NCBI GenBank assembly: GCA_944322755.1
Contig: CALUPY010000005.1
Location: forward strand, 1-64,000
From: Candidatus Gastranaerophilales bacterium
GTDB lineage: Bacteria; Cyanobacteriota; Vampirovibrionia; Gastranaerophilales; Gastranaerophilaceae
Length of the DNA: 64,000 nucleotides
Direction: 5' to 3'
Below, in pieces: positions 3,139-49,439 of the stretch (position 1 is the first letter of the stretch; the number at the start of each line of letters is the position of its first letter). The notes beneath the pieces were generated by a model. That model was not told the DNA's origin. It saw only the letters and a list, made by a program, of their open reading frames with translations, and did no database searches. The position numbers were made by a program, and so were the translations under genes.

Positions 3139-4263
3139 CTAGCAGCAAGCCGTTGATTTTGCTTTTTCCACTGCTTTCACTACTTCTTCAACTACAGTTC
3201 TCTGTTCTTCTTCAGTGATTTCAGGGAACATCGGAAGGCTCATAACGTGTTTTGTGTTTTCAACGGTTACAGGCAGTGAGTTTTCAGGAACATGTAAATG
3301 TGCATGAACTTTTTGCATATGAAGCGGTATCGGATAGTAAATCATTGCGCCAATTCCTGCCTCCTGAAGAAGTTTATGTACTTCGTCACGGTTTGGAACT
3401 TTTATTGTGTACTGGTGGTATACACAGTATGTGTTGTCAAGTTCTTTAGGTGTTTCAATATCAGGGTATTGTGCAAAAAGTTTGTTGTAGAATGCTGCGT
3501 GTTCTCTTCTTTTTTTGTTCCATTCGTCAATGTAGGGCAGTTTTACTCTCAAAATGGCTGCCTGAACTTCATCAAGACGGCTGTTTACGCCTATTTCATC
3601 ATGATGATATCTTACGGCACCGCCATGGTTTCTTAATGCAACGATTCTGTCTCTCAGATAGTCGCTGTTCGTTGTAACAAGTCCGCCGTCTCCCATTGCG
3701 CCAAGGTTTTTTGTCGGATAGAAGCTGTAGCATCCGATATCTCCGAATGTACCGACTTTTTTGCCTTTGTATTCTGCTCCTATAGCCTGGCAGCAGTCTT
3801 CTATAACATGCAGATTGTAGCGTTTTGCAACATCCATAATCACATCCATATCACAGGGCTGTCCGTAGAGATGAACAGGCATGATGGCTTTTGTTTTAGG
3901 AGTAATTTTTTCTTCAATAAGTTTTGCGTTCATGTTAAATGTGTCTTTGTCTATATCAACAAAAACAGGAGTTGCGCCGACTATTTCAACAGATTCTGTT
4001 GTTGCAACAAAAGTGAATGCCACTGTGATAACTTCATCACCTTTGCCGATATCCAGTGCTCTTAAAGCAAGATGGAGTGCGTCAGTACCTGAATTCAGCG
4101 TAACTGTGTGTTTTACTCCGATATATTTTGCAAGTTCTTCCTGCAGTGCCTGATTGTTCTTTCCTAAAATGTAAGAACCTGAGCGCAGAACTTCAAGAAC
4201 TGCCTTTTCTACTTCCGGTCCGATTTTTTCATACTGTCTTTTTGAGTTGATAATAGGTATCAT
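3139..4263 (-). CDS. DegT/DnrJ/EryC1/StrS family PLP-dependent sugar aminotransferase
   Basis: 374 residues, normal for the family. These enzymes transfer an amino group from glutamate to a keto group of a nucleotide-activated sugar, usually for surface polysaccharide or glycan modification. Visible signatures are SGTDALHLAL (PLP phosphate binding, residues 58-67), the IED motif at 154-156 that contacts the pyridine nitrogen, and YPTKNLGAMGDGG with the Schiff-base lysine at K185. An AAGGAG ribosome site sits 7 bases before the ATG, fixing the start. The C-terminus ends in two cysteines, which is not a family feature. It stands alone between rpoZ and glnA, each separated by a terminator, so no sugar pathway neighbours reveal the substrate. 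An amino sugar for LPS, capsule or glycosylation of surface proteins is possible. Confidence 0.88.
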   Translation of the reverse strand: MIPIINSKRQYEKIGPEVEKAVLEVLRSGSYILGKNNQALQEELAKYIGVKHTVTLNSGTDALHLALRALDIGKGDEVITVAFTFVATTESVEIVGATPVFVDIDKDTFNMNAKLIEEKITPKTKAIMPVHLYGQPCDMDVIMDVAKRYNLHVIEDCCQAIGAEYKGKKVGTFGDIGCYSFYPTKNLGAMGDGGLVTTNSDYLRDRIVALRNHGGAVRYHHDEIGVNSRLDEVQAAILRVKLPYIDEWNKKRREHAAFYNKLFAQYPDIETPKELDNTYCVYHQYTIKVPNRDEVHKLLQEAGIGAMIYYPIPLHMQKVHAHLHVPENSLPVTVENTKHVMSLPMFPEITEEEQRTVVEEVVKAVEKAKSTACC

Positions 4264-22000: not shown

Positions 22001-25000
22001 CTCGAATTTTCCGTCTTCGGTAATCTGAGCTTTTACATACCAGTTCGAGTTATTTATTGTATCCATTGCGGACTGGAGGGTGCCGGCTTTCAGGGTGTAT
22101 GTTTTTGAGGTATCTACGCCTGCGTCGTTTTTGTATGAAATTGTTATAATACTTTCGAGAATCTGGGTTGTGTTAGTGACATTGTTTGTACCTGTCAACT
22201 TCGAGAAGGTCTGACCTACGTTTTCACCGTCAGAGGTTGTGCCGGAAACGCCGGATGAGGGGGATGTGCTCATTAAGCTTATTGACCTTGACTGCCGTGT
22301 CGGCGTCATTATGCCCGATGTCGAGATGGAGCCTGTGTATGTTCCGCCGTAGACAGATATGCCGTAGAAGTCCGCAAAGCCCGAGGTGTCGGAGATTACG
22401 TTGAGGCTGGAAGTATTTTCGGCGGTTATTGTAATTTTTCCGCCGCTGTTTATTGCTGCCTGCAATCCTGCTGCATTCATCTTTTCAATGACTTTAGAGA
22501 CAGTGTCTGTTGCTGAAATCGCAATGGATATGCCGTTGGAGAAGTTTATTGTACCGTCTTTTTGACCCCAGAACGCTGCGTCCGCAAAGTCTCTTGTGTC
22601 CACGGAGCCGGTGATAGTAGAGCTCGATGCGCCGCCTTCTGAACCTTTTATTGTCTCTGTTTCGGCGGTAAGTGAACCGGCATGGAATGTCTGGCTGCTG
22701 CCGAGTCCGTACATCTCTGAAAATCCGGTTGTATCAGAGGTGACCTTGAGGTTAAGTGTGCCGTCCGCCGTGATTTCAATCTTTCCGTCTGCGTTAATTG
22801 AGGCTTTGAATCCGGCATTGTTCAATTTTTGTAGCACTGTGTTAAGGTCGTCAGCTGCGTTAATGCTTACGGTCGTGCCGTTCGAGAAGGTTATGCTTCC
22901 GGACTGCTGGCCTGTGAATGCATCGCCTGAATATGTTCTTGTGTCGACAGCACCGGTGAGGGTCGATGAGGTGTCGGCGCCTGCGTCTGCAATCTGGGTG
23001 TTCTGCTCGGGTGAGCCTGAGTAGTAGACGCTATTCGTTTTTAGGCCGTAAAAGTCTGTGAATCCTGTTGTGTCGGATGTGACTGAAAGGTCTGATGCAC
23101 CTGTTGCTGTGATTTCTATCTTTCCGTCAGCGTTTATAGAGGCCTGCAAGCCTGCGTCGTTGATTTTTTGGAGCACTTGCGCGAGTGTGTCAGTTGAATT
23201 TATATTTACGGTCGTACCGTTGGAGAATGAGATAGTGCCTGTGTTTTGGCCGTAGAACGCACCGCCTGAGAGTTCCAGTGTATTTACGGAGCCTGTCAGC
23301 GTGCTTTCACCGGCGTCAATAACTATCTCTGAACTGTTGACAGAGCCGCCATATACACCGCCTGCAGATGTCAGACCGTAGAAGTCAGCAAAGCCTGTTG
23401 TATCTGATTCGACCATCAGGTCCTGAGCATTTTCCGCTGTAATCTGTATTTTTCCTTCGGCATTTATTATTGCGGTGACGCCCTCGATTGCGTTCAGTTT
23501 GTTCAGAACGTCCGTGCGGTTGTCGGTTGCGGAAATTTCGACTGACATGCCGTTTGTGAATTTCAAGATACCGTCTTTTTGACCCCAGAATGCCGCGTCA
23601 ACATAGTCACTTGTGTCTACGCCGCCTGTGAGTGTGGAGGTTGCGGGAGCCAACTCGCCTTCTGTTTTAGTTGAAGTGAAGCCGGTGTAGGTTTTTCCGC
23701 TCTCGCTCAAGCCGTAGAAGTCAGCAAAGCCCGATGTGTCAGAAGTTATTTCAAGGGACAGGGCGTTATCAGAGTAGATACGTATTCTGCCGTTTTCGTC
23801 AAGTTCAGCAAATACACCGGTGGCGCCAGTGACAAATTCAGTTCCGCTGTCCTCCGGCGTGTCTGCATCAGAGCCGGCTTCTACATGACTGCCGTTGTCG
23901 CCAAAATCGCCCCATATAGTACCGGTGCCGAGGTCGTTTATTTTTTCGATTATATCAGAGCGTGTGTCTGTGGCGGAGATGTTTATTGTGACGTCAAAGC
24001 CGTCGGCAGTACCGTCGTCAACATGGATAGTCATGGTGCCGGACTGCTGACCCCAGAACGCCGCATCAGTCATCGAACCGGCATCAACAGAGCCCGTAAG
24101 GGAGGAGGAGAAGGTGTCTGTTGAACCTCCGCTAGAAGATGAACCAGGAGACTTAAAGGCAGGCATTCCTCCAGAGAAGTCCCAGATATTTTCATCCCAT
24201 CCGGCGTCTATAAATGTCTGAGCATTTGAGAATTCGGAGGTTGTGATGCCTTGATTGTTGCTTTCGACACCAATACTAGAACCGCTGTCTTGATTATACA
24301 TTCCCGATTCTATATATTCAGTATTCCAGAATGAATTAACTACTGTATCAGCATTATTTCCAACTAATCCGCCTACTTGAACATTCGTTCCGGTAACACT
24401 TCCGGATGCAAAACAATTTTCTATAGAACCGGAATTAACGCCGGTGATACCACCAACACATTGTCCGCCGCTAGTATCACCTATAAAATAGCTGTTTTTT
24501 ATAATTCCACTAGAACTTCTTCCAACAAGTCCTCCTGTTGCATAGCCACCATTAATAGTACCTGTGACATAACAATTAGAAATTTCTATTGCGGTATTCG
24601 TAGAATTGCTTTCTACTTTACCTGCTAAGCCACCAACAGCACTATTTCCAGAAATATTAACATTTTCTAAGCCTACATTTTTAATAGAAGCTCCTCTTCC
24701 AATGAAGCCAAACAGACCAATCCTGTTTTCGTCAGCTCTATCAATAGTCAGATTTTTTATAACATGTCCGTTACCGTTAAATTCGGCTTGAAAACTGGAA
24801 GATAAATCACCTATAGGATCCCAATTAGCATATCCGGACAGGTCAATGTCATTCATCAGGATATATTTGCCTATGATGTCTCCGTCAGCATTAACATTGT
24901 TCCTTATGTTATCCAGGTCTTGGGCTGTTTTGATTATTGTATAACCTTGTGCAATTGCTTCTTCTTCGCTCAATCGAACTATACCCGTAGCTGCGCTGCT

Positions 25001-28000
25001 GCCTGTATCAGGGGTACTTTCAGCAGAAACAATAATTTCTTCTGAATGAATTTCTCCATCATATGTATTGACTTTACTTCGTAATCCATAAAAATCAGAG
25101 AAGTTCGTAATATCTTGTGTTATGCGTAAGCCCTCTTCACCTGATATAGAAATTTTGCCGTCAATTATGTTGACGTCAAGACCGATATTCTCCATTTTTT
25201 GAAGAATAATAGTACGTGAATCATTTTCATTAACGTTTATATGTTTTCCGTTAGAAAAATATATACTTCCGGTTTTCTGTCCGTAGAACGCATTGTCTGC
25301 CATGCCTGTCACATTGACCGAGCCGGTTATGGTCGTGCTGCCCGGATTTCCTACGGTTGTAGTTGAAATATCCTGATTTCCTGTGTAGATGGTTTTTTCG
25401 GAATCAAGACCGTAGAAGTCAGCAAAGCCCGATGTGTCTGAGGTTATTTCAAGTGACAGGGCGTTATCAGAGTAGATTCGTATTCTGCCGTTTTCGTCAA
25501 GTTCGGCAAATACGCCGGTGCCTTTTTTCCAAATACTTTCGCCGGTCTCTTTGATTTCTGTTTCAGTGCCTGCTGGTACATGTCCAGTCTCACCTTCGCT
25601 TGGCCAGTCCGAAATTGTTATATCTTTTCCGAGGTCGTTTATTTTTTCGATTATATCAGAGCGTGTGTCTGTTGCGGAGATGTTTATTGTGACGTCAAAG
25701 CCGTCGGCAGTACCGTCGTCGACGTGAATAGTCAAAACACCGTTTTTCTGATTCCAGAAATAATTGTCAGCCATGTTTGTAGTAGAAACAGAGCCTGTGA
25801 TGGTAGTTTTGTTAACGGGAGTGCTGCCTTCTGAACTGTCCGCAGCTGCGCTCTGAACTTTGAGAACAGGAGCTGAGCCTGAAAAATCCCACACATCCTC
25901 AGACCATCCGGCGTCGATGAATGTCTGTGCATTGGACATTTGGGACGAAGTAAGCCCCTGACCTCCAAAGCTTGATGACTGACCGGATTTTTGTGTATCC
26001 CAGAAGGAATTTGTTATTTTTGATTCGTTTTCCGTGTAACCCGACAAACCGCCTGTTTTTGTACTATCAGTACCAGTGACTCGACCTGACGAGTAACTGT
26101 TTTCTATATAACCTTCTGTACCGCCGGTCAGGCCGCCGACAGCAATACTGCCTGAAACATTACCGGTTGCGTAAGAATTTGATATGGAAGAAGAACTTCC
26201 ATAATTTTGCCCTACCAGACCGCCTATATAATACTGTGAGCCTGTGACATTGCCGGTTGCGTAAGAATTTTCGACAGCACCGTAATTGTTTTCGCCGACA
26301 AGACCACCTACATATGATGTTCCTGTGACGTCGACTTGGGCATAGCTGTTCAGGATTGTTGTTGTTTTGGGCAGGTTAAATGAGTCATTGAATCCGACAA
26401 GTCCGCCGACATAGTCATCACCACTTACTGTTCCTGTTGCATAACAGTTGGTGATTTCACCTTTGTTTTGACCGACAAGTGCACCGGCTACTGCTTTTGA
26501 TGCATTTATATTTACATTTTCAAGCCCGACATTTTTGATTATGCTATTCGGCCCGGTTTCTGAGAATAGTCCTGCGTACATTACGGAGTTGTCATTTATT
26601 GTAAGGTTCTTTATCACATAACCGTTTCCGTCAAATGTTCCGTTAAATAGACCTATCGGTGCCCAGTTTGATTCGGATGACAAATCTATGTCGTTCATAA
26701 GTATATATTTGCCCGACATATTGTTTCTGATATTGTCAAGGTCATCTGCTGTCTTTATTATTGTATAGCCCTGTGCAATGGCTTCGGATTCGGTGAGTCT
26801 GTCTACTTCCGAAATGAACCCAACAGAATCAATGGCAGATGTACTACTTCCGGTGCCCGGAGCAGTTTCGCTTGTGATTTCTGCAGCTTCGACAGTATAG
26901 TCGCCCAGTCCTGTAACACGCGCAAAGTCGCCTGTGGCAGAGATTTTAACATCACCGTTGATTGTGAACTTTCCATCTGTAATAGAGGCTTGATACTTTG
27001 GCACCATCGAGTTTATGAAAGAAATTATTTGATTTATAGTTTTTCCTTTTGTTTCCAGCCCATCGATTGCGGTGCCTTCTCCTTCTATACTGATAGTACC
27101 GCTAAGTATATACTCATCACCGGTGAGATTTTGCGATGAGCCCTGGACAAAGGTCAGAGTTTCTTCTGTCGACGGTGTTGTCTGCGATGCAGCTGAGCCT
27201 ACTCTGTAATCACCCATGCCCGTAACACGCGCAAAGTCTCCGGATACAGCAATCGAGACAGAGCCGTTTTTGCTGTCTATTGTGAATTTTCCGTCAGTGA
27301 TAGAAGCTGTAATGCCGGATATGTTCTGGGCATTTATTTCATCGGCAATCTGCTGAAGAGTTTTGCCTTTTGTTTTTATTTCTGCGCCGTTACCGACCTT
27401 AATCGTGCCGCCGACGATTGTTTCGTTGCCGGTAAGCCCTGTACTGCTGCCTGTGTAACGGGTTATCAATGTAACGTCCGCGTCATCAGCCGTAACCCTG
27501 TCGACGACATAGTCATCGAGTCCTGTTACCCTTGCAAGGTCGCCTGTTGCAACGACAGCGACCTCTCCATTTTCGCTTGTGATAGTAAATCTGCCGTCCG
27601 TGATGGATGCGGTTATGCCAGTAAGTTTTTGAGCATTAACCTCATTAACTATCTGCTGGATTGTTTTTCCGGTTGCGTCAATAACAGTGCCGTTTCCGAC
27701 TTTCAATGTTCCGCCGAGCACCAGCTCACTTCCGGTTAAGGATGTCTGAGAACCCTGCATAATAGTGTTTACATCAACAATTATTTCTTCCTGAATAGTT
27801 GATATAGAAGAAGAACCGCTGTAATTTGTATCAGTTTCACCAAGTCCGTAGAAGCCGGTGAATCCTGTATCATCAGACGTGACTTTCAAGTCTGCGGTGT
27901 CTTTGGCTGTTATTGTGATATGTCCGTTTTCGTCGATAGCTGCTGTGAGTCCGGCGTTGTTGAGTTTTTGAAGGACATCCGAGCGTGTGTCAGATTCTGA

Positions 28001-31000
28001 AATAGTTATGCTGGCGCCGTTAGAGAAGGTGATTGTGCTGGCAGTCTGTCCCCAGAATGCAGCGTCGTTCAGGTCTGTAACATCGACAGAGCCGGTAAGG
28101 GTAGAGGATTCCGGCACAGTAGAAGCTTCTTCGAAAGTAGTTTCGAATCCGCCGCTGTAAACCGTATCAGTATTGAGCAAACCGTACATTGCGGCAAATC
28201 CCGTGTCGTCAGATGCAACGCTCAAATCCTTTGCACCCTCTTTTGAAATGGAGATTCTGCCGCTTGCGTCTATTTCTGCGGTGAGACCGGCAGCGTTGAT
28301 TTTCTGAATAACCGTATTCAGGTCATCGTTCGCGCCTATGGTTACGTTCGTACCGTCAGAGAAGGAGATTGTGCCTGACTGCTGACCGTAGAAGGCTTCG
28401 CCGGTGAATCCGGAGGTATCAACAGAGCCGGTAATTTTTGCAATATCCTGTGTCGAATTTCCTGAGTTCTGGTCTTTCAAGGCTGGAGCAGAGCCGGAGA
28501 AATCCCAGATGGATTCGTCCCAGCCGGCATTTACGAACATAGTCAAATCAGCAAAATCCGATGAGGTTATACCTGTTCCGCCGGCGCTTGTGTCCTGACC
28601 GGTGGAGTCAACTGCCCAGAATGAGTTAGTGACCGTTGTATTCGAAATAAAACTTCCTATCAAGCCGCCGACATCGCTTACGCCCGTCACAGAACCCATT
28701 GCATAGCTGTTTTCCACAGTTTCATCCTGAGTTGCGCCAATTAAACCGCCAACTCGATTTGTTCCGGTGACATTACCTGTTGCATATGTATTTTTGATAG
28801 AGAATCCGCTTGTATTCGCACTCATGCCGATAAGACCGCCGACTCCGTATTCGCCTGACACATTTCCGGTTGCATAAGAATTAGAAATATTTCCGGCTGC
28901 ATTTGCACCGAGTAAACCGCCTGCATAATTTTTACTTTCAACTTCTGCCGAGGACCAGGAGTCGGTGATAGTTCCGCCAAAATAGTTCAAGCCAATCAAA
29001 CCGCCTGCATTCGCCAATACAGTACTATCCGAGGCATCAGGGTCTGTATTTCTTACAACACCTGTCGAATAAGAGTTAGAAACAACGCCATAAGCGACGT
29101 TTGCACCGACAAGTGCGCCTGTTGCTCCGTATCCAGAGATATATACATTTTCAAGTCCTACATTTTTGATTGTACCCTGGTTCATTCCGAACAAACCGAC
29201 AGATTCTGATGTTGTATCATTAATCGTAAGATTTTTGATAACAAACCCATTTCCGTCAAATATTCCCTCAAACACATCTGAACCGCCTATCGCAGTAAAG
29301 TTTAAGACGCTGCTCATATCTATATCGTTCATCAGAATATATTTACCTTCCAAATCGTCATTTATTTTCAGAAGGTCTTCTGCTGTTTTTATTACGGTAT
29401 AGCCCTGTGCTATTGCATCAGCTTCTGAAATTTTGTCGACAGATGTGATAAAATCGCGTGAAACAGAAACATTCTGAACTATATACGAGGATATTCCGGT
29501 AACTCTGGCAGCATCACCCGTCGCCTGAACATTAACAATACCTGATGTACTTTCTATCGTGAATCTGCCGTCTTTCAATGATACACTCAAGCCTTCAATA
29601 TTCAGCGCATTTATTTCATCTATAACCTGATTCAGAGTTTTTCCGGCAGCGTCAATCACGGAATCAGCGATTTCAATAGTTCCGCTCACAAATTTTTCAT
29701 TTCCTGTAAGAGAATCCGAAGCCCCCTGCATTGTAACACTGTTCGTTGTTTCCTGAGATGAAGAAATGCTGCCGGAATAGTTTTTGTCAGTGGATAACAG
29801 ACCATAAAATTCTGCAAATCTCGATGTGTCAGAGACAATACTCAAACCGCCGCTGCCTTCTTTTGATATTTGTATTGCTCCGTCTGAGAGAATGACGGTT
29901 TTCAGTCCTGCTTCGTTAATTTTTTTGAGAACTTGTGCTCTGGTGTCATTTGCCGAAATATTTACAACTGTGCCGTCAGAGAATGTCAAAACACCGTCTT
30001 TCTGCCCGTAGAAAGCATTGTTTGAAAATCCCTGAGTATTTACAGTTCCTTCTAAGTAACTGTTTTTTTCGAGATTTATTTCTTCATTTTCTTCAGGTTC
30101 TCTGCTTCCGGGGATAATTTCTCCGACACCGATTTCGAGTTCACCGTCATAAGTAATTACGTCAGATAACCCGTAAAAATCAGTAAAGCCGGTGTTGTCG
30201 GATGTAACCGAGAGTTTGTCTGTTTTGGAAGAAGTCAGAAGTATTCTGCCTTTGTCGTCTATTTGTGCGGATAATCCGGCTGCGTTTATTTTATCAAGAA
30301 CTGTGTTGAGATTGTCTGTTGCATCGATAGTGACGTTTGTGCCGTCCGAGAATGAGATTGTGCCGGACTGTTGACCAGTAAAGTAATCGCCGGACAAATC
30401 TGTTGTATCAACAGAGCCGAGTATGCTATGTGTGCCGAATATTCTAAGTTCCGGTGTTCCTGCAGAAAAATCCCAGACTGATTCATCCCAGCCTGTGTCT
30501 GTGAATGTGGATGGATTAGAAAGCTCGCCTGTTGTCTTGCCGGTAACGTTTGTTATGGTAATTTCACCATAATTTTCTATACAAATAGCATCTATATTAG
30601 ATTCATCTGTATTCCAGTATACATTGGAAAAGTCACTTGAATTTTCTGATGCGTCGAATTGGCCTATTAAAGTTTTATAACCATCATAAGCATTTACTGA
30701 ACCTGCCACATATACATTAGAAACATTCGTACCGCTGTACATAGCGCCAAAAAGAGCACCGCTTTGAGAGTGTTCATCAGAATCAAGTGTCTCTTCACCC
30801 TTGACCGTGACATCTACATCAACATAAGCATTTGTAACAGTACTGGCATCTGAACCATAAGTTCCCAAACAGCCCAGAAGTCCACCTGCATAAACCCTTG
30901 TAGCTGTCACAGAACCTGTTACATAGATATTAGATATAATTGTATTATTATAAGCTTGGCTTGCCAATGAACCAACACCCATATAACCTTCGATATCAAC

Positions 31001-34000
31001 ATTTTCAAGTCTCAGGTTTTTAATCTCAGCATTATTGAGGTCATCAAATAGTCCGCTATCACCGTGCAGGTTTTTTATTGCGTAACCGTTTCCGTTAAAG
31101 ATCCCCTGGAATCCTTCTATTGATTCCCAATCACCAAACGAAGCCAGATCTATGTCGTTCATTAGAATATATTTGCCTGTTATATCGCCATTTATGGCAT
31201 CATTTCTGATATTATTCAAATCTTCGGCTGTTTTTATTATGGTATAACCCTGTTCTATTGCGTCGGCCTCTGATATTTTTCCAGTGCCCTGAACTTCGTA
31301 TGACGCAATTCCTGTAACTCGGGCAAAATCGCCGGTTCCTGAAACAGAAATTTTTGAGGCGCTTCTGATTGTAAATTTTCCGTCTTCAATGCTTGCTGTG
31401 ACATTTTTTATGTCAAGTGCATTAATTTCATCGACTATTTCTTGCAGCGTTTTGCCTGTCGTGTCTATACTGTTTCCGCCGACACTTACACTGCCGCTCA
31501 AAATGACATCATCTCCGCTCAGGTTTGAGCTTGCACCTTGTATGGTTAATCCCGAGCCTTGTTGTATAATCTCGTTTTCTTTTGGATTATAGTATGTGTT
31601 AGTTACAATACCCGGTGTTGACCATTCGGATGTGAGACCCCAATATTTAGCAAATCCTGATGTGTCTGATACGACAGTCAGGTTGTCTGTACCGGACCCT
31701 ATTATTGTGAATCCGCAGCTTGTGTTTGTATACAAACCGGCTTCTTCCATTTTTTTCCGTACGACACTTAATGAGTCTGTTTTCGATATATCAATGGATA
31801 CACCATTTGAGAAGGTAAGCGTACCGTCTTTTTGACCATTGAATGCCAAGGAACTGTTATCGACCATTTTGGAACCGTATAGAATAGAAGATTTTTGAGC
31901 TTCTTGATTAAATGTTGGGGTTGAACCGGAGAAGTCCCAGACAGATTCGTCCCAGCCGGCATTGATGAAGTTTTGCATATCTGCCATCTGGGCATTAGTA
32001 AGTCCTGTGCCGCCGCACTCGCTGGTAGATACACCGGAGAGTTCTACATTCCAGAAACTATTTTTGATGGAATAATAAAAAGAGCTATTGTCGTGTATAA
32101 GTCCGCTAGCATAAGCGGAGCCTGTAATTACACCGGAGTAATAACTGTTTTCTATGTAGGTTTCATCATAAAGTGAATAACCAATTAGACCGCCAATATT
32201 ACCATAATTACTGCTCAAGGTAGCTGTAGAATACGAATTTATCAGTTTTAAATCGCCGCCTGCACTAACTGTCGTACCAATAATTCCACCAATGTCACTA
32301 TTCCCGGAATTGCTGTTGTTGCTTATTGTACCTGTTGAAAATACATTTTTTAGCAGCAAGTCATAATCTTCCCAAGCATATCCAATTATACCGCCTGCAT
32401 TACCTTCTGTTTGAATATTAACATTTGCGTAGGAATTTATTATTGTGCCTCCGCCAAAACCAACCAGACCGCCGGCATTACCTTTAGCATTGATAGTGAC
32501 ATCCGCACCGCTGTTAATGATGTTAACATTTTTTCCTCCAGTAGGCGAGAAGGAGTAACGTCCGCCAACCAGCCCGCCTACACCGATAAAGTCGCCTCCA
32601 TCTTCTCCGGATACTGTTCCAGAGACGAAAGTATTATAGATTTTGCCTACGTTATTATCACGACCGCCCTCATTCGCAATTGCACCTACTGCACCGGTCT
32701 CAGCGGATACGTTTACATTTTCCATAGTCAGGTTTCTGACTTCACCTTCTAAAATTCCAAACAGACCGCCGTTTGTAGAGGTGAAGTTTCTTATGGTATA
32801 TCCGTTGCCGTCAAATACACCATAGAAAGATGATTTAGGCGTCCAGTCTGTAACACCTGACATGTCTATATCACACATGAGAATGTATCTGCCTGAAGAG
32901 CCAATATTCTGCAGGTCTGAAGCTGATTTGATAATAGTATAACCTTTGGCAATGGCCTCTTCTTCTGTCAGATGGTTTGTGGCGGCAGCTTCGACAGAGT
33001 AGTTCGCAATACCCAGTACTCTGGCTGCATCATTTGTGCCTGTGATATTTATTTTGTCATTATTTATACTGGTTATTGTGAATCTGCCGTCTTCTATGGA
33101 CGCAATTATTCCGGAGATATTCTTGGCGTTTATTTCTTCTATAATTTGGTCTACAGTTTTTCCGTCTGTTTGAATGACATGTTTCCTGTCGTCGTAACTC
33201 AATGTGATATTGCCGCTGATAATCTGTTCGCTTCCTGTCAGGTTATCGGCAGAACCCTGTGAAACGATAATAGGTGTCGGGGTTTTAAGACCGTAAAACT
33301 CACTGAATCCGGTGTTGTCGTATGTGATTCTGATATATTCTGAATCATCAGATATTTTTATAAATCCGTTTTCGTCAATTTCAGCACTCAAACCGGCATC
33401 ATTGATTTTCTGTAAGACTGTATCAAGGTCATCTGTTGCGGCGATAGTGACTTTTGCACCGTTGGAAAATTCAATTGTTCCTGACGACTGTCCCCAGAAA
33501 GCTCCGCCTGTAAGCTCTGTTGTGTCAACGGAGCCTGTCAGAGTCGAGTGCTGCGTTGTCTGTTCTACAGAAAAAGTCTGTTCTCCGTCATACTCTGCGC
33601 CGTCTGCGTCAAGACCGTAGAAGTCCGCAAAGCCTGATGTGTCAGAGACAATGGAAACTTTGCCCTCGCCTGTGAGGGTGAGATTTCCGTTTTCATCGAT
33701 TTTTGCATAAACGCCTGTGCCTTCACGAATTACTTCATAATTTCCTGTTCCGGAAGGCGTTGATGGTTCTGGAGATTGATCATCCTGGTGCTGTCCGCCG
33801 TCACCAACCCACTCCGGCAGTATCAAATCTTCTGCAAGGTCGTTAATTTTGTTGAGCACGTCAGTTCTTGTATCACCTGCGTCAATCTGAATTTCTACAT
33901 CAAATCCGTCAGCCGTGCCGTCGTCAACGTGGATTGTCAAGACTCCGTCTTTCTGGCCCCAGAAGGCTGTGTCAGCCAGGTCATCTGTATCTACAGAGCC

Positions 34001-37000
34001 GGTAAGTTCAGTGCCCTGACCTGTGGCGGGTGTGTCGGGCATGTCCGGTGTTTCTGTATCCGGAGGAGTTGCCGAAACAGGGGTTGAGAAGATGTTCTGT
34101 GTTTTCAGTACAGGAGCTTCACCTGAGAAATCCCAGACGTTTTCTGACCAGCCTGCGTCGATGAAGTTCTGGGAGTTTTTGAACTCTTCGGAGGTGAGAC
34201 CCTGGTATGTGACAGAGCTTTCGTTGGGGGGAGTTGTCACATATGTATCATCATCAGGGATAAGCTGATATTGGGTTGTATAACCATGTTTTTTATCTTT
34301 GTCCCAGAATGTACTTACAAAGTTATTTCCATAACCGCCTTCTGCGCCAACCAATCCTCCGCCATTACCATCACAATTTGCATAAGAAGAATAGACAAAG
34401 GCATCTGATAGAAAACCAATAAGTCCACCGCCATTATTATCACACATAACATTGCTGCTTGAATAAGAATTGAAAATATAGCTGTGATTATCACCAGAGC
34501 TAATAATTTCTGAGTTATCACTCCAACAAGCATATCCCGCAAGCCCGCCAGCAATCATGTCAGTTGCAGTGATTGTTATATCTGTATATGAGTTTGATAT
34601 AGTGCTGCTGGCAAGAGTTCCTACCAAACCACCGACATGTCCACCAGCGCTAATATTGCCGTTTACAACAGATGAATTATAAATTTTCGTGGTATCGCTA
34701 TAGCCGACAAGACCGCCTACCGCAGCTCCTCCATTTATATTAACATTTTCAAGACGAACATTTGCTATTTCTGCACCGAAAGTATATCCGAAAAGACCTA
34801 TATTATTTTCATCAGCTCTGTCTATTGTGAGATTGCTTATGGTAAACCCGTTGCCATTGAATACACCTGTGAAGGCGCTGTAAAAATCTGTGCCTATAGG
34901 CGCCCAGTTAGAGATACCGGAGAGGTCAATATCGTTCATAAGTATATATTTGCCGGAAAGGTTGTTTTTCATTGCCGCAAGGTCGTCTGCAGTTTTTATA
35001 ACAGTATACCCCAGTGCAATCGCTTCTTCTTCAGTAAGCCTGTATACACCGGCGGTTTCGGATAGCGCGGAACTGTGTTCAGGGATGGTTATGCCGTTTG
35101 ATTCGAGATTTGTCTTGAAATTGTTAATCCAGTCATACTCAGAACTGTTTGCGATTTCGAATGAGGTCAGACCTGTCGCAGAATCCTGAGCTACACCGGC
35201 CAATAAAACTCCATAGCCATGAATCTGATTTGTTGATTCTATATTGAAATAAGCGTCAGTGATGGTGCCGCCGTTTGCTTCTCCTGCAAGTCCGCCGGTG
35301 TTGTGTACGCCGTATACAAGTCCTCCGGCATATGAATTTTCAATAGAACCGCCATTCGTGATACCGACAAGTCCGCCAATTGTGTTGTCACCGGAAACAA
35401 CAGCTTCACTATAACTATATTCAATTGTGCCGCCATTCATTAAGCCGACAAGTCCGCCGATAGTTTCTTTTCCCTGGACAGTGCCGAGGTTATATGAATT
35501 GGCGATTTCACCGCCGTCATACATTACTCCTACAAAACCGCCGACTTCGCTGTTACCTTTGACTGTGCCGGAGACTAAAATATAATCTCTTATTTTTCCG
35601 TAATTTTCGCCGGCAATACCTCCTACGCCTGTGTCACCCGTGACAGAGCCGGACATAACACCAGTATCATGTATATTGCCAGTTGCATCATTAACTCCGA
35701 CAAAACCTCCGACATCACTTTTACCGTTTACATTACCGGAAAAAGTAGTTTCTGTTATTTCACCATAGTTATCTCCGACAAGACCGCCGATAATGCTGTT
35801 ATCATCACCTATGCCGTATACAGATGCGTGGATGGAAGAATAGCTGAGCATACCTCCGTTTTCCATCGTTCCAGCGACACCGCCTACATATTGGGTTCCT
35901 GAAATAGTTCCGGATACAGTAATGTTTTGCGCAATACCGGTAGAGCCGATTACTGCAGCAATACCGCCTATGTTTTCAACGCCTTCTACTGTGCCGGTAA
36001 ATGATGAATTTTTAACAGTACCATTTAAAAGACCTGCAAATCCTCCGAGGTTGCTGCCGTCACGGATAATTGAGGCTGATGTTGAATCCTCAATAACAGC
36101 ACCTTTCTCTAAAACGCCAGCAATACCACCTGTATAGTCAGCAGTGTTGCCGACCATGGTCAGACCTGAATTTGATGACATTATTTTGGCTCCGGATTCC
36201 ATCGTGCCTGCAAGACCGCCGGTGATTCCGTTTGCTTCTATAGTTCCGGTTGCATAAGAATTTTCTATAACAGCGCCGTCTCCCATTTTTGCTATAAGTG
36301 CGCCGGTATTGTTATTTGCAGCTTTTATACTGACATTTTTAAGCGCTACGTTAGAGATAACAGCCAAATTATTTGCATATCCGAACAAACCTGCATAATC
36401 GGAGTTTGTGCCGTCTATTGTCAAATTTTTGATAGCATAACCGTTTCCGTTGAGTTCGCCGGTAAAGGCTGAAGCATCAGTACCGATTGCAGTCCAGTTT
36501 GAGTATGATGAAAGGTCGATGTCTCCCATAAGAATGTATTGACCGGTTATGTTTCCGTTTTCGTCAACATTGTTTCTGATGTTGTCTAGGTCGGCTGCGG
36601 TTTTAATGACAGTATAGCCCTGTGCAATGGCTTCTTCTTCCGTAAGCTGTGTTACTGGATTTATGAAGTCGACAACAGGGGCATTCGGGTCAACTTGTTC
36701 AGTTATAACTTCGCCGTCGTATGTTGTGTCTGTTTCCATAAGTCCGACAAGCTGTGAGAAGCCTGAGGTGTCAGCGACGATGGAAATCGGGCCGTTTGTT
36801 GAGGAGATGTAGATTTTTCCTTCATAACCGACAGAAATGTCAAGTCCGGCCGCTTTTATGGCTTTTATTGCGGCGTCAATATTCTTTTCTGCATCGGCGT
36901 CGATAGTGACTTTTGTGCCGTCTGAGAATGTTATTTCTCCGTCATCCAAGCCTGCTGCTGAATATTCGAGCAATTCTTCGACGTTGACTGAGCCGGTGAG

Positions 37001-40000
37001 GGTTGTTACGCGGCCGTCTTGTACGGTTTGTTTCAGCGTCGGAGGATTTTTTGAAAAATCCCAAACCTCATCTGACCAGCCTGCGTCGATGAAGTTCTGT
37101 GAGCTGGACATGTCAGACGATGCGCCCGTGCCGGTGTAGTTGGCGTCGGTAATAAGTTCCATATTAACAAGGTCTGGAGCGGTAGATTTAATTGCATTTG
37201 TTTGACCAGTAGAAGTGGAATCCCAGAAGGTGTTTTGCAGATAAGAATCTATCTCTATACCTCCAAAGAGTAGGCCTATAATGCCCGCACTATTGCTGCC
37301 TGTTACAGAACCTGTTGCATAGGAGTTTATTATTGCGCCCTCATTTGTCGGAATACTTATTGGAAATTGTGCAATACCAAGATCAACATTTGCTGTAAAA
37401 TAATATGGCACATGCATGCCAACTAAACCGCCGGTGCTGCTGACAAAATGCTGACCTCCGGTTACATCTCCTGATGCAAAAGTATTGGAAAGTGTAGAAC
37501 CCCAAGAAGCTCCGGTCAGACCACCTGTGTAACATATTGTGTCACTGGAAATTTGTTCTCCTGAAACGTTACCTAGTGCATATGATTCAGAAATTGTTGA
37601 ATTTGCGCTTGTTCCAACTAAGCCGCCAATTGAATTATGGGTGAAAAAATTATAAATATCTTCAAACTCATAATTCTTATCACCTATACATGTTACATCA
37701 ACATCTGCATAAGCGTATGATATGTTGCTGCCGTTGACTGTCCATTCATTTAGATCGAGTGAAGACTTGTCAAATACAAAATCTTCTCCAACTAAGCCGC
37801 CAACAAAGCCTTTTCCTGTAACAGTACCAGTAACGTAGGTGTTTGTTATTTCTCCTGAAATCGTTCCACCCAGTACGCCTACAACACCGCCGCCGTTTAC
37901 ATTTGCATTTTCTATACCGAGATTTTTTATCACTGCGTTTTTTGCATAACCAAATAAACCGACATAAGTTTCATCCGCCCTGTCGATGGTGAGATTTTTG
38001 ATGACAAATCCGTTGCCGTTGAGTGTGCCGGTGAAGGCGTTCGAGTCGTCGCCAATCGGAGTCCAGTTTGTGTATCCGGAGAGGTCGATGTCTCCCATGA
38101 GAATGTATTTGCCTGAGAGATTGTTTCTGATGTTGTTCAAATCTTCGGCGGTTTTGATGAGAGTGTAGCCCTGTTTGAGTGCTTCATCTTCTGTGAGCTG
38201 GTAGATTTGCTGGGTGAATTTAGAGGCATTCTGGTCTTTGAGAGTCGGGGTTGAGCCGGACAAATCCCAGATGGATTCGTCCCATCCTGCAGCTTTGATG
38301 TTGTCCATGGACATGTCAGACGATGCGCCTGTGCCGGTGTAGTTGGCGTCCTGATAGAATGTTTCGTCATCTGCATACTTGAGGGCATCAAATTTGTAAA
38401 TTTTGCCAATCAGGTTTTGCTGTCCTGTAGAATCTGCATCCCAGAAAACGTTTTGGATATATGTATCTAAATCAGTATTCTCAGAAACAGCGCCGACGAG
38501 TCCTGCAGTGCTGCCAACGTTTCCTGATGAGATGCTGCAGCTAACAGAACCTGTTGCGAAGGAATTTGTTATAGAACCTTTAGCGGTATTTAGCTGCAAA
38601 GGCAAAAATCCTGCCACATAATGAGCAAAGCTTTCAGAAAGGTGCAAACCTACTAAACCGCCGGCAAAACCTTCATTCTGACCTGAAACATTACCTGTTG
38701 CATAGGTATTAGATAATGTAGAACCTTCAGAATGACCAACTAAACCACCACCAACAAACAAGCAATTAGTTGCATTTCCTGTCTCAGAAATGTTACCGGT
38801 TGCATAGGATTCAGAAATTGTGGAATTTGCACTATGACCTACCAGACCGCCAAATCCACGATATTGAACTCCAAGAATACTAGGATCAGAATCTGTATTG
38901 TCAACGGTAGAGGATACATCAACATTTGCATAAGAATATGAGATATTACTACCGATTACAGAATATTCCATACCGTTTCTAATGATAGTAAAATCTTCAC
39001 CAATTAAACCGCCGACACTCATTGCGCCTGAAGCCGTACCTGTAGCATAGGTATTAGTGACTTCACCTGAAAAAACGCCGGCCAGTACACCGATGAACAC
39101 ATCGCCGTTTACATTCGCATTTTCTATACCGAGATTTTTTACCACTGCGTCTTTTGCATAACCGAACAAGCCGACATTAGATTCATCAGCCCTGTTGATA
39201 GTCAGGTTGCTTATGACATATCCGTTGCCGTCGAAAGTGCCTTTGAACGCGGAGGAACTGTCTCCAATCGGATTCCAGTTTTCGTAAGCAGACAGGTCGA
39301 TGTCGTTCATCAAAATGTATTTTCCTGTGATGTTGCCGTTTTCGTCGACGTTGTTTCTGATGTTGTCGAGGTCTTGGGCTGTTTTGATTATTGTGTAGCC
39401 CTGTTCAACAGCCTGTTCTTCTGTCAGACGTTTTATGGAGTTTGTGAAATTGCCTTTGTGGAGCTCGCCTGAGGCGGAGATTGTTTCTTCTTCGACAATG
39501 ACTTCGCCTTTGTGCACTGTGTCTGTCGCTGTCAGGCCGTAAAAATCAGAAAATCCTGATGTGTCAGAGACAATGGAAACTTTGCCCTCGCCTGTGAGGG
39601 TGAGATTTCCGTTTTCATCGATTTTTGCATAAACGCCAGTTCCTTCTCTGACAAGCACAAGGTCGTCTTCTGTTATAGGCTGTCCTGCATCCCCATCTTC
39701 TGTAACCCAGTAATCGTCTTCTGCGAGAAGGTTGATTCTGTTCATAATAGCAGTACGTGTGTCGTTGGCGTTTATCTTGATTTCTATGTTGAATCCAGTT
39801 TTTCCGCTCGCAGCATAGGGTGAATCGTCGTGAATTTTTCCATCGTCGACATAGATGGTCAGGACACCGTCTTTCTGACCCCAGAATGCAGAATCAGCCA
39901 TTTCACCGGCATTGACCGAACCGGTGATGGTAGTGTCGTCGTATCTCGGGTCTGGCGCTTCGCCCGTTGCGTAGGGGTTTGTAATGTTAATCGTCGGATT

Positions 40001-43000
40001 GACTGTCTTATTCGCTTGTTTCAAAGTCGGCATATCGCCGGAGAAATCCCATACATCTTCTGACCAGCCTGCGTCGATGAAGTTCTGTGCGCTGGACATG
40101 TCAGAGGACAGCGTGCCTACTATTAAAACAGGGTAGTCTATGTCTTCGTATCCAAATGCATTTGGCTGTCCGGTAGTATCTGCATTCCAGAATGAGTTCT
40201 CTATACCTGTCAATTCATCAGACATGCCCGGCATTTGTTCACCTGAAGCATGACCTATAAAACCGCCTGTGTTTGTTGTTCCGGAAACTTCTCCGGCTGC
40301 ATAAGAGTTTTTGATTCTGCCTGTCTTGTAGCCAAGGGGTGATATCATGTAGCTACCGAGCAGACCTCCGACATTTTCTGTGCCTTTTACGTTTCCTGTA
40401 GAATATGTATTTGTTAAATTGTTGCCGGCTGATAATCCTATCAAGCCGCCGATATTTTTTGTACCTGTGACATTTCCGGTTGAATAAGAATATGAAATCT
40501 CAGAAAGTACTGCATAACCTGCAATTCCGCCAGCACCTGCTTCGCCGGTAACATCAACATCAGAATATGCGTATTGAATATTTGCGGATTCAAAAGTAGA
40601 ACCGACTAAGCCGCCTGTATAGTTTTTACCTGTAACAGAGCCTGTAGCAAAGGAGTTGTATATATTTCCTTCTAAATTACCGGCAATAGCACCTGTATAG
40701 TTGCCTCCTTTTACATTGACATTCTCAAGTCCTACATTTTTAATTTCACCTTGAGAACTTCCGAACAGACCGACATAATCTTCGTCTGTTCTATCTATCG
40801 TCAGGTTTTTAATAACATATCCGTTTCCGTTTAATTCACCGGTAAAGGCTGCAGAATCGTCACCAATAGGATCCCAGTTTGTGTATCCGGAAAGGTCTAT
40901 GTCTCCCATAATAATGTATTTGCCGGAAAGATTGTTTCTGATGTTGTTCAGGTCTTCTGCGGTTTTTATTACAGTGTAGCCCTGTGCGATTGCTGCTGAT
41001 TCAGAGATATGATTTGTCTGTGAAACAAAGTTTTCTGACGGGGTATTTGTGCCTGTTAAAGAGGACGCATTGCCGGAAAAGTCCCAGATTTCTTCTGACC
41101 AGCCTGCGTCGATGAAGTTCTGTGCGCTGGACATGTCAGACGATGCGCCTGTGCCGGTGTAGTTGGCGTCAACTGCATTAAATCCGAATACAGCATAACC
41201 ATCTTCTAAAACAGAATCAAGAGCATTAGCTTGTCCTGTAGAATTTATGTCCCAGAAAGAATTTTGGAGATATGTATCTAAATCCGTAGATTGTGAGACA
41301 GCGCCCACAAGTCCGCCTGTTATAACATCTTCGCTTCCGCCTGTCACGGCACCTGTTGCGTAGGAATTTATTATTGCGCCTTTATTAACGGATATGGGCA
41401 TTATCCGCCCAAGAAACTGTATCTCATACTCATCAGAATGTATACCAACTAAACCGCCTGTGCTGCCAAAGTCTTGACCTCCGATGACATCACCGGAGAC
41501 AAAAGTATTAGAAATAGTTGTACCCCAAGAAACGCCTACCGCTCCGCCGACATAAGATGTATCTTCATCACCTTGTTCAAAACTACCGATTTTTTCTCCG
41601 GAAACATTGCCTAAAACGTAAGATTGTGAGATTGTTGCATTTGCACTGTTGCCGACTAAACCGCCAATTGCGTTATAATAAGCAGGACTAGTAAATGTTG
41701 CCGCATAACCGTCATTCATCAATCCTGTAGAAGAAACATCAACATCTGTATAAGAGTAAGAAATGGTGCTGCCGCCTTCAATTGTCCAGTCATCAGGCCT
41801 GAGAGAATTGTTTCTATTTAATGTGAAATTAATACCTATTAGCCCTCCGACATCCAAGTCTCCGGTAACTGTACCAGTCGCATAGGTGTTTGTCACCTCA
41901 CCGACAAAGTTACCGCCCAGTGCACCTACAGCAGCACTGCCGTTTACATTCGCATTTTCTATACCGAGATTTTTTACCACTGCGTCTTTTGCATAACCGA
42001 ACAAGCCGACATTAGATTCATCAGCCCTGTCTATAGTCATGTTTTTGATGACGAATCCGTTGCCGTTTAATTCGCCGGTAAATACTGTTGGTCCGTCGCC
42101 TATCGGATCCCAGTTTTCGAATGACGAGAGGTCGATGTTGTTCATCAGGATATATTTTCCTGTGATGTTGCCGTTTTCGTCGACGTTGTTTCTGATGTTG
42201 TTCAAATCTTCTGCTGTTTTTATCACTGTGTAGCCCTGTGCAATGGCTTCTTTTTCAGAAATATAGTCAACTTTTGCGACAAAGTTTTCTGCGTATGCGT
42301 TCTGGTCTTTGAGAGTCGGGGTTGCGCCGGACAAATCCCAGATGGATTCGTCCCATCCGGCGGCTTTGATGTTGTCCATGGACATGTCGGATGAGGCGCC
42401 TGCGATAGAATCCACCCCCCCGACAGCCTGTGATGCTCCGGTTGAGTCTGTGTTCCAGAAGGAGTTTTGGATATATCCACTTATAGAACCATCAGCAACA
42501 CCAATCAGCCCGCCTGTCTTTCCCTGAGACACATTTTGGACTGAAACATTACCTGTCGCATAAGAATTCTGTATTTGAGCGACACCATCTATTGTAACAG
42601 TAATTCCCAAAACGGATATCTGCCCCCCCCATAAGGAACCAACTAGACCTCCTGCAACAACTGTATCTGTGTTTGAGACTGTACCTGTTGCATAGGCGTT
42701 TTTAATAGTACTGGCGATATTATTTCCAACCAATCCGCCTAAATAACTTCCTCCTATGTCTGCTGTAACATCACCTGTTGCATAAGATTCTGAAATAGTT
42801 CCGCCAAAAATATCTCCAATTAACCCGCCTACTCCGAGTAATGCCATCCCAAATATATCCCCATCGGAATTTTGAGTAACTGTAACATCAACATCAGCAT
42901 AAGAAGAATAAATATCAGTATGACCGGTGAAAGTTAAGCCATCTCTTTGTATATAGCCTGCGCCAATAAGACCACCCATGCTACCAGCACCTGAAACATT

Positions 43001-46000
43001 TCCTGTTGCGTAGGCGTTCGTTACATTACCGCCCAATGTTCCTGCAAGAGCGCCAACATTAACATAACCCACGACATTAGCATTTTCTATGCCTACATTT
43101 TTTATTTCAGCATCGGTTGTAATACCAAACAAGCCGACATTAGATTCATCAGCCCTGTCGATAGTCAGATTGCTTATGACATAACCGTTGCCGTTAAATT
43201 CACCGGTGAAGGCGTTTGAGTCATCGCCTATCGGATCCCAGTTTTCGTAAGCCGAAAGGTCGATGTTATTCATCAGGATGTATTTTCCAGTGATGTTTCC
43301 GTTTTCGTCGACGTTATTTCTGATATTGTCGAGGTCTTGGGCTGTTTTGATTATTGTGTAGCCCTGTGCGAGTGCTTCTTCTTCCGTTATACGGTTGACA
43401 GTGTTTATAAAGTTTCCTGAGTAGACAGTAGAGGTGCCTGCTTCGACTTCGTAGTCCGCAAGTCCCGTCACACGCGCAAAATCGCCTGTCGCCGTGATAG
43501 CAAGTTCACCGACGGTGCTTTCTATTGTGAATCTGCCGTCTTTTATGGAGGCTGTGACGCCGTCCAGTCCGAGGGCATTTATTTCTGCGGCTATTTGGTT
43601 AAGGGTTTTGTCTTTTGTGCTTATTTCAGCTGCATCACCGACTTTGAGGGTGCCGCCGATGATTGTTTCTTCTCCGGTCAGAGTTGAGGCTGTGCCGTAG
43701 TGGCGGGTTATTGTAATTGGCCCTGTCTGCACCTGATCCGCTGCACTGACTGTATAGTCGCCGAGTCCGGTTACGCGTGCAAAGTCGCCTGTCGCAGTTA
43801 TGGAAAGTTCACCGTTCAGGCTGTCTATTGTGAATTTTCCGTTTGTTACCGAGGCTGTTACGCCGTCTATTCCCAGTGCGTTTATCTCATCGACAATCTG
43901 GTTAATGTTTTTGAATTTTGTATTGATTTCAGGGGCGTCGCCGATTTTAAGTGTGCCGCTTAAGATTACCTCGTCGCCTGTGAGGTCTGAAACCTTGCCG
44001 TAGTGGCGGGTTACCATCATCGGTTCTGATTCTTCTACGGTTCCGCCTTCAATCTTGTAGTCGCCAAGGCCAGAAACTCTTGCAAAGTCGCCTGTTGCAA
44101 TGATAGACGGGGTTACATTTTCGCCCTGTATCGTAAATCTGCCGTCTGTTATAGAAGCTGTTATTCCTGTGATATTCTGGGCGTTTACCTCATCAACTAT
44201 CTGCTGCAGCGTTTTGCCTTTTGTGTCTATTGCTGTTCCGCCCTGAATCTGCAATGTGCCGCCGAGAATTGTTATATCTCCGGTCAGTGAAGATGTTGAG
44301 CCCTGAACAGTGGTTATTGTGCCGCCGGGAATGTTCTCTATTGTGCCGTCTTCGGTGTCGTATGTCGCAAAGCCCGTTACCCTTGCAAAATCGCCTGTCG
44401 CAAGAACTTCTTCTGCTGCGCCGTCAAATTTTATTGTGAATTTGCCGTCAGTTATAGAGGCTTCGTAGTTTGTGAATTCAGACAGGTCGTTTATTTCATC
44501 CACTATCTGCTGCAGAGTTTTGCCGGCAACATTAAAGTTGTCTACACCGATTTGCAAAGTGCCGCCGACTATAGTTTCCGAGCCGGTCAGTGAATCTTCC
44601 TGTCCCTGCATTGTTATATATGAAGAACCGCTGCTAACGTTGTATTCGGCAAGCCCTGTAACCCTTGCGGCGTCGCCTGTTGCGTTTATCTCAATTTCAC
44701 CGCTAGAGCTTGTGACAGTGAATTTTCCGTTGACTATTGCGGTTTGGACGCCTTCAATATCCAGTGCGTTGAGCTCTTCTACTACCTGTGCAAGCGTTTT
44801 TCCGGCTGCGTCTACAGTTTTATCGCCGATTGAAACAGAGCCGCTTACAAGCGTTTCTGTGCCGGTCAGGCTGTCGGCCTGTCCGGTGTATGTATGAATA
44901 GTTATAACAGGTCTGGCTGTATCTGTTGAGCTGCCTTCTGATATAGTATAGCTTGCTAGTCCTGTTACCCTAGCAAAGTCGCCGGAGGCTATTACATCGA
45001 CCTGGCCTCTTTCGCTTGTGACAGTGAATCTGCCGTCTTTTATGGATGCAGTAACACCGGAAATATTCTGGGCATTGATTTCTGAAATTACTTGGTTGAG
45101 TGTTTTTCCGTCTGTATCAATTACCGCATTTCTGTCTATTTGAATGCTGCCGCCGACAAATCTTTCTGAACCATTTAATGATGTGTTTTGTCCCTGCATG
45201 AGGGTAATTGTTTTGTAATTTACTTCCGGAGACTCTGCGGATGTGTTAGAAGTGGTTGCGCCGGCTGTGCCCGTACCTGCAAGCCCTGATACACGCGCAA
45301 AGTCGCCTGATGCCTGCACATCAACGATTCCGTTTTCGCTTATTATCGTAAATGCTCCGTCTTTTATGGAGGCTGTGATTCCTTCAAGTCCCTGGGCATT
45401 GATTGCGTCAATGACTTCCTGCATTGTCATGCCTTTGGTATTTATTTGGGCGCCGGAGCCTACTTTTACTGTACCGTTTAAAAGAACTTCCGAACCGTCG
45501 AGAGTGTTTGTTGCACCCTGCATCTGGGTTACTGTAACCGCTTCTGTTGACGAGCTGGTTCCTGCTTCGACTATGTACGAGGCAAGTCCGGTGATTCTTG
45601 CAAAATCTCCTGTGGCTGTCACGGACGGAGCGTTTGAGCCTTCTACTTTCAGAGTGAACCTTCCGTCTGTTACAGATGCGCTTAAGCCGTCTATACCTTG
45701 TGCGTTAATTTCGTTAATTACCTGCGCAAGTGATTTTCCGGTTGTATCTATTTCTGCATTGTCTCCGATTTTTATTGTGCCGCCTACAGAAACAATACTG
45801 TCGTTAAGCTGCATTTCAGAACCTTGAACAATAGTGTAGGTTTCTGTGTTTTCGTCTACAACGTTTGAACTGCTGCCGGAGCCGATTATGTATTCTGCCA
45901 TTCCTGTTACGCGTGCAAAATCACCTGAAGCCTGAACGCTCGGGACTGTATCAGTACCGGTTACTGTAAATTTTCCGTCTTTAATTGATGCAGTTATTCC

Positions 46001-49156: not shown

Positions 49157-49272
49157 GCCAAAACTCCTCTCACCACAAGCAAGAGGCTATATTCTGAAAT
49201 ATGCCATTGTTTGACTACACATTTTTTCATGCGTACATCCTTGGGGTATATTTTCAATTTACACAACTCGAC
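49157..49272 (-). promoter_or_regulatory. Structured leader of the 11,051-aa gene
   Basis: About 116 nt. It shows three hairpins: ACGCAT/ATGTGT; then GGC-ATATT / AATAT-GCC with a TCAG loop and one bulge (49205-49185); then CCTCT/AGAGG (49186-49182 with 49170-49166). The last stem pairs the Shine-Dalgarno AGAGGAG (49170-49164), seven bases before the ATG. The second and third stems share two bases, so they cannot both form fully. Confidence 0.6.
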
Positions 49273-49307
49273 ATAAACAGTATATCACATTGATATAAAT
49301 AACGCAA
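49269..49307 (-). promoter_or_regulatory. Promoter of the 11,051-aa gene
   Basis: Minus strand: TTGCGT (49307-49302), 17-base spacer ending TG-A, TATACT (49284-49279), an extended -10 sigma70-type promoter. The 25 bases from 49293 to 49269 match the divergent promoter at 24 positions. It does not resemble a sigma28 flagellar promoter. Confidence 0.75.
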
Positions 49308-49400: not shown

Positions 49401-49439
49401 TTGCAGAAGTGATGTCAATATGATATACTGTTTATGTCG
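49401..49439 (+). promoter_or_regulatory. Promoter of the 3,980-aa gene
   Basis: TTGCAG (49401-49406), 17-base spacer ending TG-A, TATACT (49424-49429). The 25 bases 49415-49439 are the twin of the divergent promoter. Between the two promoters lie about 90 AT-rich bases with no further feature I can name. Confidence 0.75.

Follow-up and report, generated by a model that had tools for sequence, protein, structure and literature searches.

An open reading frame of 11,051 amino acids (aa) on the reverse strand of a Candidatus Gastranaerophilales genome (GCA_944322755.1; here G000 or the source genome, a 2.19-Mb assembly of 43 contigs) combines GLUG modules with hook-IN repeats and FliD-like ends. 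It lies at 16001–49156 of the window, which is the whole stretch of 64,000 nucleotides that was analyzed (C5:1–64000, from contig CALUPY010000005.1). This giant is probably, in our moderately confident assessment, an extra FliD-derived flagellar adhesin with recombining GLUG heads, whose export, location, and binding we infer. A reading made from the letters of the window alone (the sequence-only reading) had pointed to the combination of GLUG and hook-IN repeats. Beyond it, we found that an ordinary FliD is encoded elsewhere in the genome, that the number of modules varies among close relatives, and that GLUG also occurs on flagellins.

The giant contains 12 GLUG modules of 278–532 aa (mean 358 aa) spanning 24146–43396, with module starts counted by motif, which agrees with the twelve modules of 280–530 aa at 24150–43405 described by the sequence-only reading. 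That interval fits the modules and falls short of the whole feature, which comprises the full giant and a divergent paralogue (Table 1). All 12 module starts have a GYTxIKTAxDL-like motif and most module ends have a WDFSG-like motif; ends were chosen by hand, and that of module 6 was set without an end motif. Profile searches with Glug and Flagellin_IN, the check that had been proposed, score well above cut-off for both families on the giant, with a best Glug match of E = 3.1e-42 (140.5 bits vs. a cut-off of 20.5) on its pieces. Peptidase_M26_N also matches the GLUG modules, at up to 63.9 bits (cut-off 27.7). Single Glug matches at E ≤ 0.001 number 32 in the whole source genome, 18 of which fall in the giant's frame, and a sequence core is common to 15 GLUG module copies. 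The earlier picture of modules spaced by IN linkers holds in part: IN repeats are present, but there is no regular linker between every pair and some modules abut. Many of the IN copies are concentrated at aa 200–1900 and beyond aa 8300.

The relation to FliD is carried by the C-terminus. FliD_C exceeded its threshold only in a separate scan of the C-terminal 367 aa, and a PDB sequence search with the giant returned no FliD chains at E ≤ 1. The AlphaFold2 model of the last 637 aa is the weaker of two (mean predicted local distance difference test [pLDDT], 68.7; predicted template modeling score [pTM], 0.32), and its first 21 Foldseek matches in the PDB are chains of FliD or of cap/filament-assembly complexes (best, 6sih, E = 3.9e-10). 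Template modeling scores in Foldseek are low, as expected with a different or poorly predicted domain arrangement. By its C-terminal Pfam match and predicted fold, then, the giant is an additional member of the FliD (filament cap) lineage, and the GLUG and hook-IN/FliD domain calls of the sequence-only reading are borne out. Because FliD_N is not reached at the other end, we name the protein FliD-like or FliD-derived and not FliD. One part, aa 9360–9650 (20207–21079), is rich in Tyr, Ser, Thr, and Trp, has no family match, and differs from the remaining protein.

A second AlphaFold2 model covers 601 aa around module 11 (IN, GLUG, IN) and has a mean pLDDT of 81.4, with GLUG coils mostly at or above 90. 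Its best Foldseek matches are IgA1 protease M26 structures (7uvk, E = 3.9e-6; 6xja, E = 6.0e-6); FlgK and FliD match the IN flanks lower down (E ≥ 0.04), and there are weak matches to beta-helix lyases. In this model, the Peptidase_M26_N match on the giant is a beta-helix and not the catalytic portion.

Flagellar genes have been reported in this lineage (PMC3787301, PMC5877343). The source genome encodes a flagellar FlhA on contig C1, above the equivalog cut-off (857.9 vs. 772.1), and has 10 Flagellin_N (PF00669) matches, none of which is on C5, the giant's contig. An ordinary FliD of 476–478 aa is encoded on contig C13, with both FliD_N and FliD_C above cut-off; the giant is therefore an extra FliD-like protein. 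A third giant of 6,203 aa is encoded on C2. A second FlhA-like protein, below the equivalog cut-off and with FliI- and FliF-like neighbors, occurs on C14 (29105–36245), and this locus may encode another flagellar or type III system.

Orthologues of the giant in three same-genus genomes are 3,012, 7,267, and 8,900 aa long and have 0, 4, and 5 module starts, respectively, compared with 11,051 aa and 12 starts here. Their ends are closely similar to those of the giant (N-terminal 400 aa, 81%–93% identical; C-terminal 640 aa, 82%–94%). The divergent neighbor is constant at 3,980, 3,980, 3,980, and 3,981 aa, and has GLUG in none of the four genomes; in two of the three other assemblies it shares a contig with the orthologue in the same divergent arrangement. 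Compared with the same-genus genome G174, aa 2287–5855 of the giant lack a collinear counterpart in the best alignments, which establishes poor alignment of the middle and no more. Ratios of nonsynonymous to synonymous substitution (dN/dS) against the three relatives are 0.02–0.08 for the giant's ends and 0.03–0.05 for the whole neighbor, values that are rough with dS near saturation. The best reading of these patterns is that the ends are kept and that recombination between modules adds and removes GLUG heads. At the place of the third giant, G174 has a 437-aa frame with FliD_C (C11:63415–64725) that is probably the remnant of a C2-type giant.

GLUG also occurs on flagellins. A gene on C25 of the source genome codes for a protein of 703 aa in which Flagellin_N, Glug, and Flagellin_C each exceed their cut-off, two similar flagellins were found in G174 and G101, and Flagellin_N is matched by the source genes on both C25 and C12. 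G174 has 23 Flagellin_N matches, and 12 of its 15 G/C runs of at least 9 fall in flagellin genes (matched by place; tract statistics based on an assumed 3.5 kb per flagellin gene are rough). Among the 12 tract-bearing loci, the frame is continuous in five and broken in six, and the remaining one (L080) is in frame but truncated by the end of its contig; nine have GLUG, one has DUF3060 instead (L067), one shows no GLUG, and one is cut. The tract starts at base 475–476 after the start codon, near codon 160, in nine of these 12 loci and in the C25 gene. With identical flanks, G11 is in frame (L066, L076, L080) and G12 is out of frame (L063, L075); in the source genome, two tracts of 13 bases differ, the one on C25 keeping the frame and the one on C12 not. 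Slippage in G/C tracts is the proposed switch of the GLUG flagellins, with tract lengths read from assemblies and switching within populations deduced from them. Other genera differ. Among 13 of their flagellin loci that were scanned, four carry G9–G13 located 87–90 bases ahead of the start, a fifth carries G11 at 44, a sixth carries G11 at 607, and three have no start by the motif used, one of them with G11.

Two loci of the source genome carry a run of 13 C at which the frame breaks. On C12 (57899–62795), such a tract interrupts a flagellin after an N-terminus of 172 aa. Next comes a frame with IN and GLUG, at least 1,443 aa long and cut off by the contig end, so that the locus is probably a giant flagellin that is switched off. 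On C1 (161291–163059), the tract breaks the frame of a gene for a membrane protein, next to one for an acyltransferase-like protein (both named by eye); this is likely a second switched surface locus. Contig ends of C12 and C30 break inside repeats of this kind; at the C30 end (24290–24624), a flagellin N-terminus is joined to an IN repeat also present at the C12 end, a junction that looks like an assembly break within repeats.

We searched for the giant's C-terminus in other genomes. Its alignment against genome contigs identified 17 loci, 16 in Candidatus Gastranaerophilales and one in an "uncultured bacterium"; narrow patterns were used, and absence from other lineages is weak evidence. A C-terminal profile matches 160 of 383 genomes of the order at E ≤ 0.001 (147 at E ≤ 1e-10), and FliD-like frames of at least 1,500 aa occur in at least 48 genomes among 92 tallied. 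The lineage search for FliD_C paired with Glug that the sequence-only reading had suggested yielded 16 single frames in 14 Gastranaerophilales genomes of genera g1, g14, g15, and g28, where a frame was counted as fused when both matches agreed in contig and frame length. Within g14, the giant of G076 ends ~110 bases before an ordinary fliD frame on the same strand, and in G101 a 3,837-aa giant lies two genes ahead of fliD, whereas the frame immediately following fliD is IN-rich and FliD-like, at least 1,150 aa long, and truncated by the end of the contig. An unrooted FastTree tree of 27 C-terminal 300-aa pieces places the giants in two separate groups, one of g1/g14 (support 1.0) and one of g15/g16/g28 (support 0.994); this suggests that giants originated at least twice. 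Glug was rejected as a marker of flagellated genomes: it is present in 56 of the 147 genomes with strong FliD matches and in 37 of the 236 others, which include the 13 with weak matches (above 1e-10). Glug-rich frames of 550–1,557 aa in five genomes with no strong FliD match (G007, G013, G107, G017, and G307) are possibly a source pool of modules.

Under the flagellar adhesin reading, the giant would leave the cell unfolded via the flagellar export system, its D0/D1-like ends would dock at the growing filament end or the hook-filament region, and an IN-repeat arm studded with GLUG beta-helices would be held away from the filament. The heads may attach to surfaces, with glycans of the host or community, or mucus, as the likeliest targets, and the flagellum would thereby double as an organelle of adhesion. 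Recombination between modules would alter how many heads are present and of which kind, and GLUG-bearing flagellins along the filament would be switched by G/C-tract slippage. Multivalent GLUG binding heads held out from the cell, as the sequence-only reading had imagined, are plausible, and the arrangement suggests flagella doubling as re-armable sticky appendages. More tentatively, at somewhat under even chances, we propose that the flagellum has become an organelle for modular adhesion that varies at two levels: recombining GLUG heads on FliD-derived giants, and a flagellin repertoire, mostly GLUG-bearing, in which slippage acts as a switch at an almost constant position between polymerizing domain and head, with GLUG-carrying giant FliDs having arisen at least twice. 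If true, the concept of the flagellum would widen to a tip and filament with exchangeable, switchable heads like those of pili and autotransporters, and such flagella would belong to a poorly cultured gut lineage adjoining Cyanobacteria.

Several observations weigh against these proposals. The giant's N-terminus is below the FliD_N cut-off (8.7 vs. 24.8 bits), and with an ordinary FliD present the giant is not required as a working cap. The G133 orthologue has no GLUG at all, and GLUG is therefore not essential to the role of the ends; G174 keeps only its short FliD_C frame in place of the third giant; and Glug occurs in 37 genomes that have no strong FliD match, so the family is not tied to flagella. 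The window has no G/C run over 8, and the fetched same-genus giant loci have none of 8 or more, and phase switching of the giant itself was rejected on this ground. A chain of 11,051 aa is far beyond the flagellar export substrates known to us and raises the question of how some 11,000 residues would pass through the export channel.

The alternative that survives best, and that we consider unlikely, is a surface or released adhesin with borrowed FliD-like ends that is no longer flagellar, for example, one shed as a free linker. The sub-cut-off N-terminus, the separate FliD on C13, and the giant's neighbors in the window, which are housekeeping genes and none flagellar, favor it, but no other export signal or anchor was identified by Pfam on the giant's pieces (nor a Sec-like N-terminus by eye), the low dN/dS values indicate strongly constrained ends, and giants lie near fliD in G076 and G101. 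An RTX-type adhesin was also rejected, with no RTX family in the Pfam tables of the pieces. Somewhat less probable again is a shield, spacer, or antigenic decoy that hides the filament tip from the immune system, phages, or predators, or that increases drag or stiffness, without specific binding. Length and content that change fast between constant ends, the orthologue without GLUG, and flagellin variants both in and out of frame agree with it; the core kept across the 15 GLUG copies exceeds the need of a plain spacer. Flagellum-borne peptidases or glycan-cleaving enzymes, as in flagellinolysins, are very improbable: the Peptidase_M26_N matches, the weak lyase fold matches, and flagellins annotated as M26 (PMC5595980) point that way, but the matched part is a beta-helix, the M26 catalytic family is absent from the Pfam tables of the giant's pieces, and the enzyme reading was put aside with no HExxH motif in the 11,051-, 3,980-, and 6,203-aa proteins of the source genome. 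An assembly chimera or decaying repeat gene, which repeats and the broken C12 and C30 ends might invite, is scarcely credible with a frame open over 33 kb, the same ends and divergent pair in other assemblies, the same architecture in 14 genomes, and the low dN/dS of the ends.

The preferred reading, a flagellar adhesin, concerns one half of a divergent gene pair. The paralogue has IN repeats, no GLUG, and 50% (C-terminal 630 aa) and 49% (N-terminal 397 aa) identity to the giant; its own C-terminus was scanned without a FliD_C match, and FliD_N reaches 11.2 bits (cut-off 24.8). An 18-bp element upstream of each gene is exact in all four same-genus genomes, at a single site per gene with no further exact sites; one extra site with two mismatches occurs in G174, and the element is absent from the two g14 genomes searched. 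From its letters it reads as a putative sigma-70-like extended -10, and inspection by eye of the pair did not reveal a sigma-28 promoter.

Table 1. Features of the giant locus in the window
Feature	Position	Strand	Evidence
Giant FliD-like open reading frame, 11,051 aa	16001–49156	-	Internal stops absent; orthologues in three same-genus genomes
FliD_C domain	16073–16846	-	34.2 bits vs. cut-off 25.4, E = 2.4e-8; Foldseek best match 6sih FliD, E = 3.9e-10
C-proximal IN repeats and Y/S/T-rich stretch (~aa 9360–9650)	16877–24145	-	Flagellin_IN E = 5e-39 on 16004–25756
GLUG module 12, 278 aa	24146–24979	-	Module table
GLUG module 11, 317 aa; inside modeled segment 25382–27184	25853–26803	-	Module table, model, Foldseek
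GLUG module 10, 317 aa	28487–29437	-	Module table
GLUG module 9, 282 aa	30437–31282	-	Module table
GLUG module 8, 362 aa	31892–32977	-	Module table
GLUG module 7, 316 aa	34097–35044	-	Module table
GLUG module 6, 532 aa, end set by hand	35057–36652	-	Module table
GLUG module 5, 389 aa	37037–38203	-	Module table
GLUG module 4, 401 aa	38231–39433	-	Module table
GLUG module 3, 334 aa	40013–41014	-	Module table
GLUG module 2, 407 aa	41048–42268	-	Module table
GLUG module 1, 365 aa	42302–43396	-	Module table
N-proximal hook-IN repeat array, ~aa 200–1920	43397–48556	-	Flagellin_IN E = 5.9e-38 on 43157–49156; motif positions
D0/D1-like coil of the first 200 aa, whose QVAT stretch aligns with ordinary FliD	48557–49156	-	Alignment; FliD_N below cut-off
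18-bp element GATATACTGTTTATGTCG upstream of giant	49269–49286	-	Motif search
TTGCAG, 17 bases, TATACT, upstream of paralogue	49401–49406, 49424–49429	+	
Same 18-bp element, inverted, upstream of paralogue	49422–49439	+	Motif search
Divergent paralogue, 3,980 aa, IN repeats, without GLUG	49603–61545	+	Open reading frame list, Pfam scans

Precedents are known in giant flagellins, flagellinolysins, and M26-annotated flagellins; for GLUG-bearing FliD giants or a switching GLUG flagellin repertoire, we found no report in the open-licence PMC literature, judged by titles and abstract openings. The statement of the sequence-only reading that it knew of no described protein combining many GLUG and hook-IN repeats stands within that literature for FliD with GLUG, and has a neighboring precedent in the 17 flagellins annotated Peptidase_M26 by Eckhard et al. 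2017 (PMC5595980, Table 1). Compared with the FliD/HAP2 cap (PF07195, PF02465), the giant shares the C-terminal domain and predicted fold, hook-IN repeats, and an N-terminal coil with QVAT, and differs in its length (11,051 vs. 476–478 aa), sub-cut-off FliD_N, twelve GLUG modules, and coexistence with an ordinary FliD. Giant flagellins (PMC6248924), defined as PF00669 proteins over 1,000 aa, likewise have a huge surface-exposed middle, grown by internal duplication, between conserved flagellar ends, whereas the giant is of FliD type without Flagellin_N; FliD is not mentioned in the main text of that study. In the Campylobacter poly-G contingency loci (PMC6321876), tract length switches surface genes on and off, as proposed here for the GLUG flagellins; the flagellin tract here lies at the D1/GLUG junction, and the window genes have no such run. 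The reduced mucin binding of Clostridioides difficile fliC and fliD mutants (PMC12713411) fits, by analogy, a general role of flagella in adhesion. The M26 IgA1 protease N-terminal GLUG region (PF07581, PF05342; 7uvk, 6xja) has the same sequence family and beta-helix fold, and the giant differs from it in the absent catalytic motif, many copies, and flagellar-type ends. Flagellinolysin and the M26-annotated flagellins carry, like the giant, a foreign domain within the hypervariable region of a flagellar protein; those proteins are flagellins only, the flagellinolysin domain is proteolytic with an HExxH motif that the giant lacks, and the main text of Eckhard et al. does not mention FliD and is not known to describe tandem modules or phase switching. 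Since the M26_N match on the giant is a beta-helix without a catalytic motif, some of the 17 M26 flagellins may be GLUG proteins, and M26 labels in flagellins deserve to be rechecked for non-catalytic GLUG.

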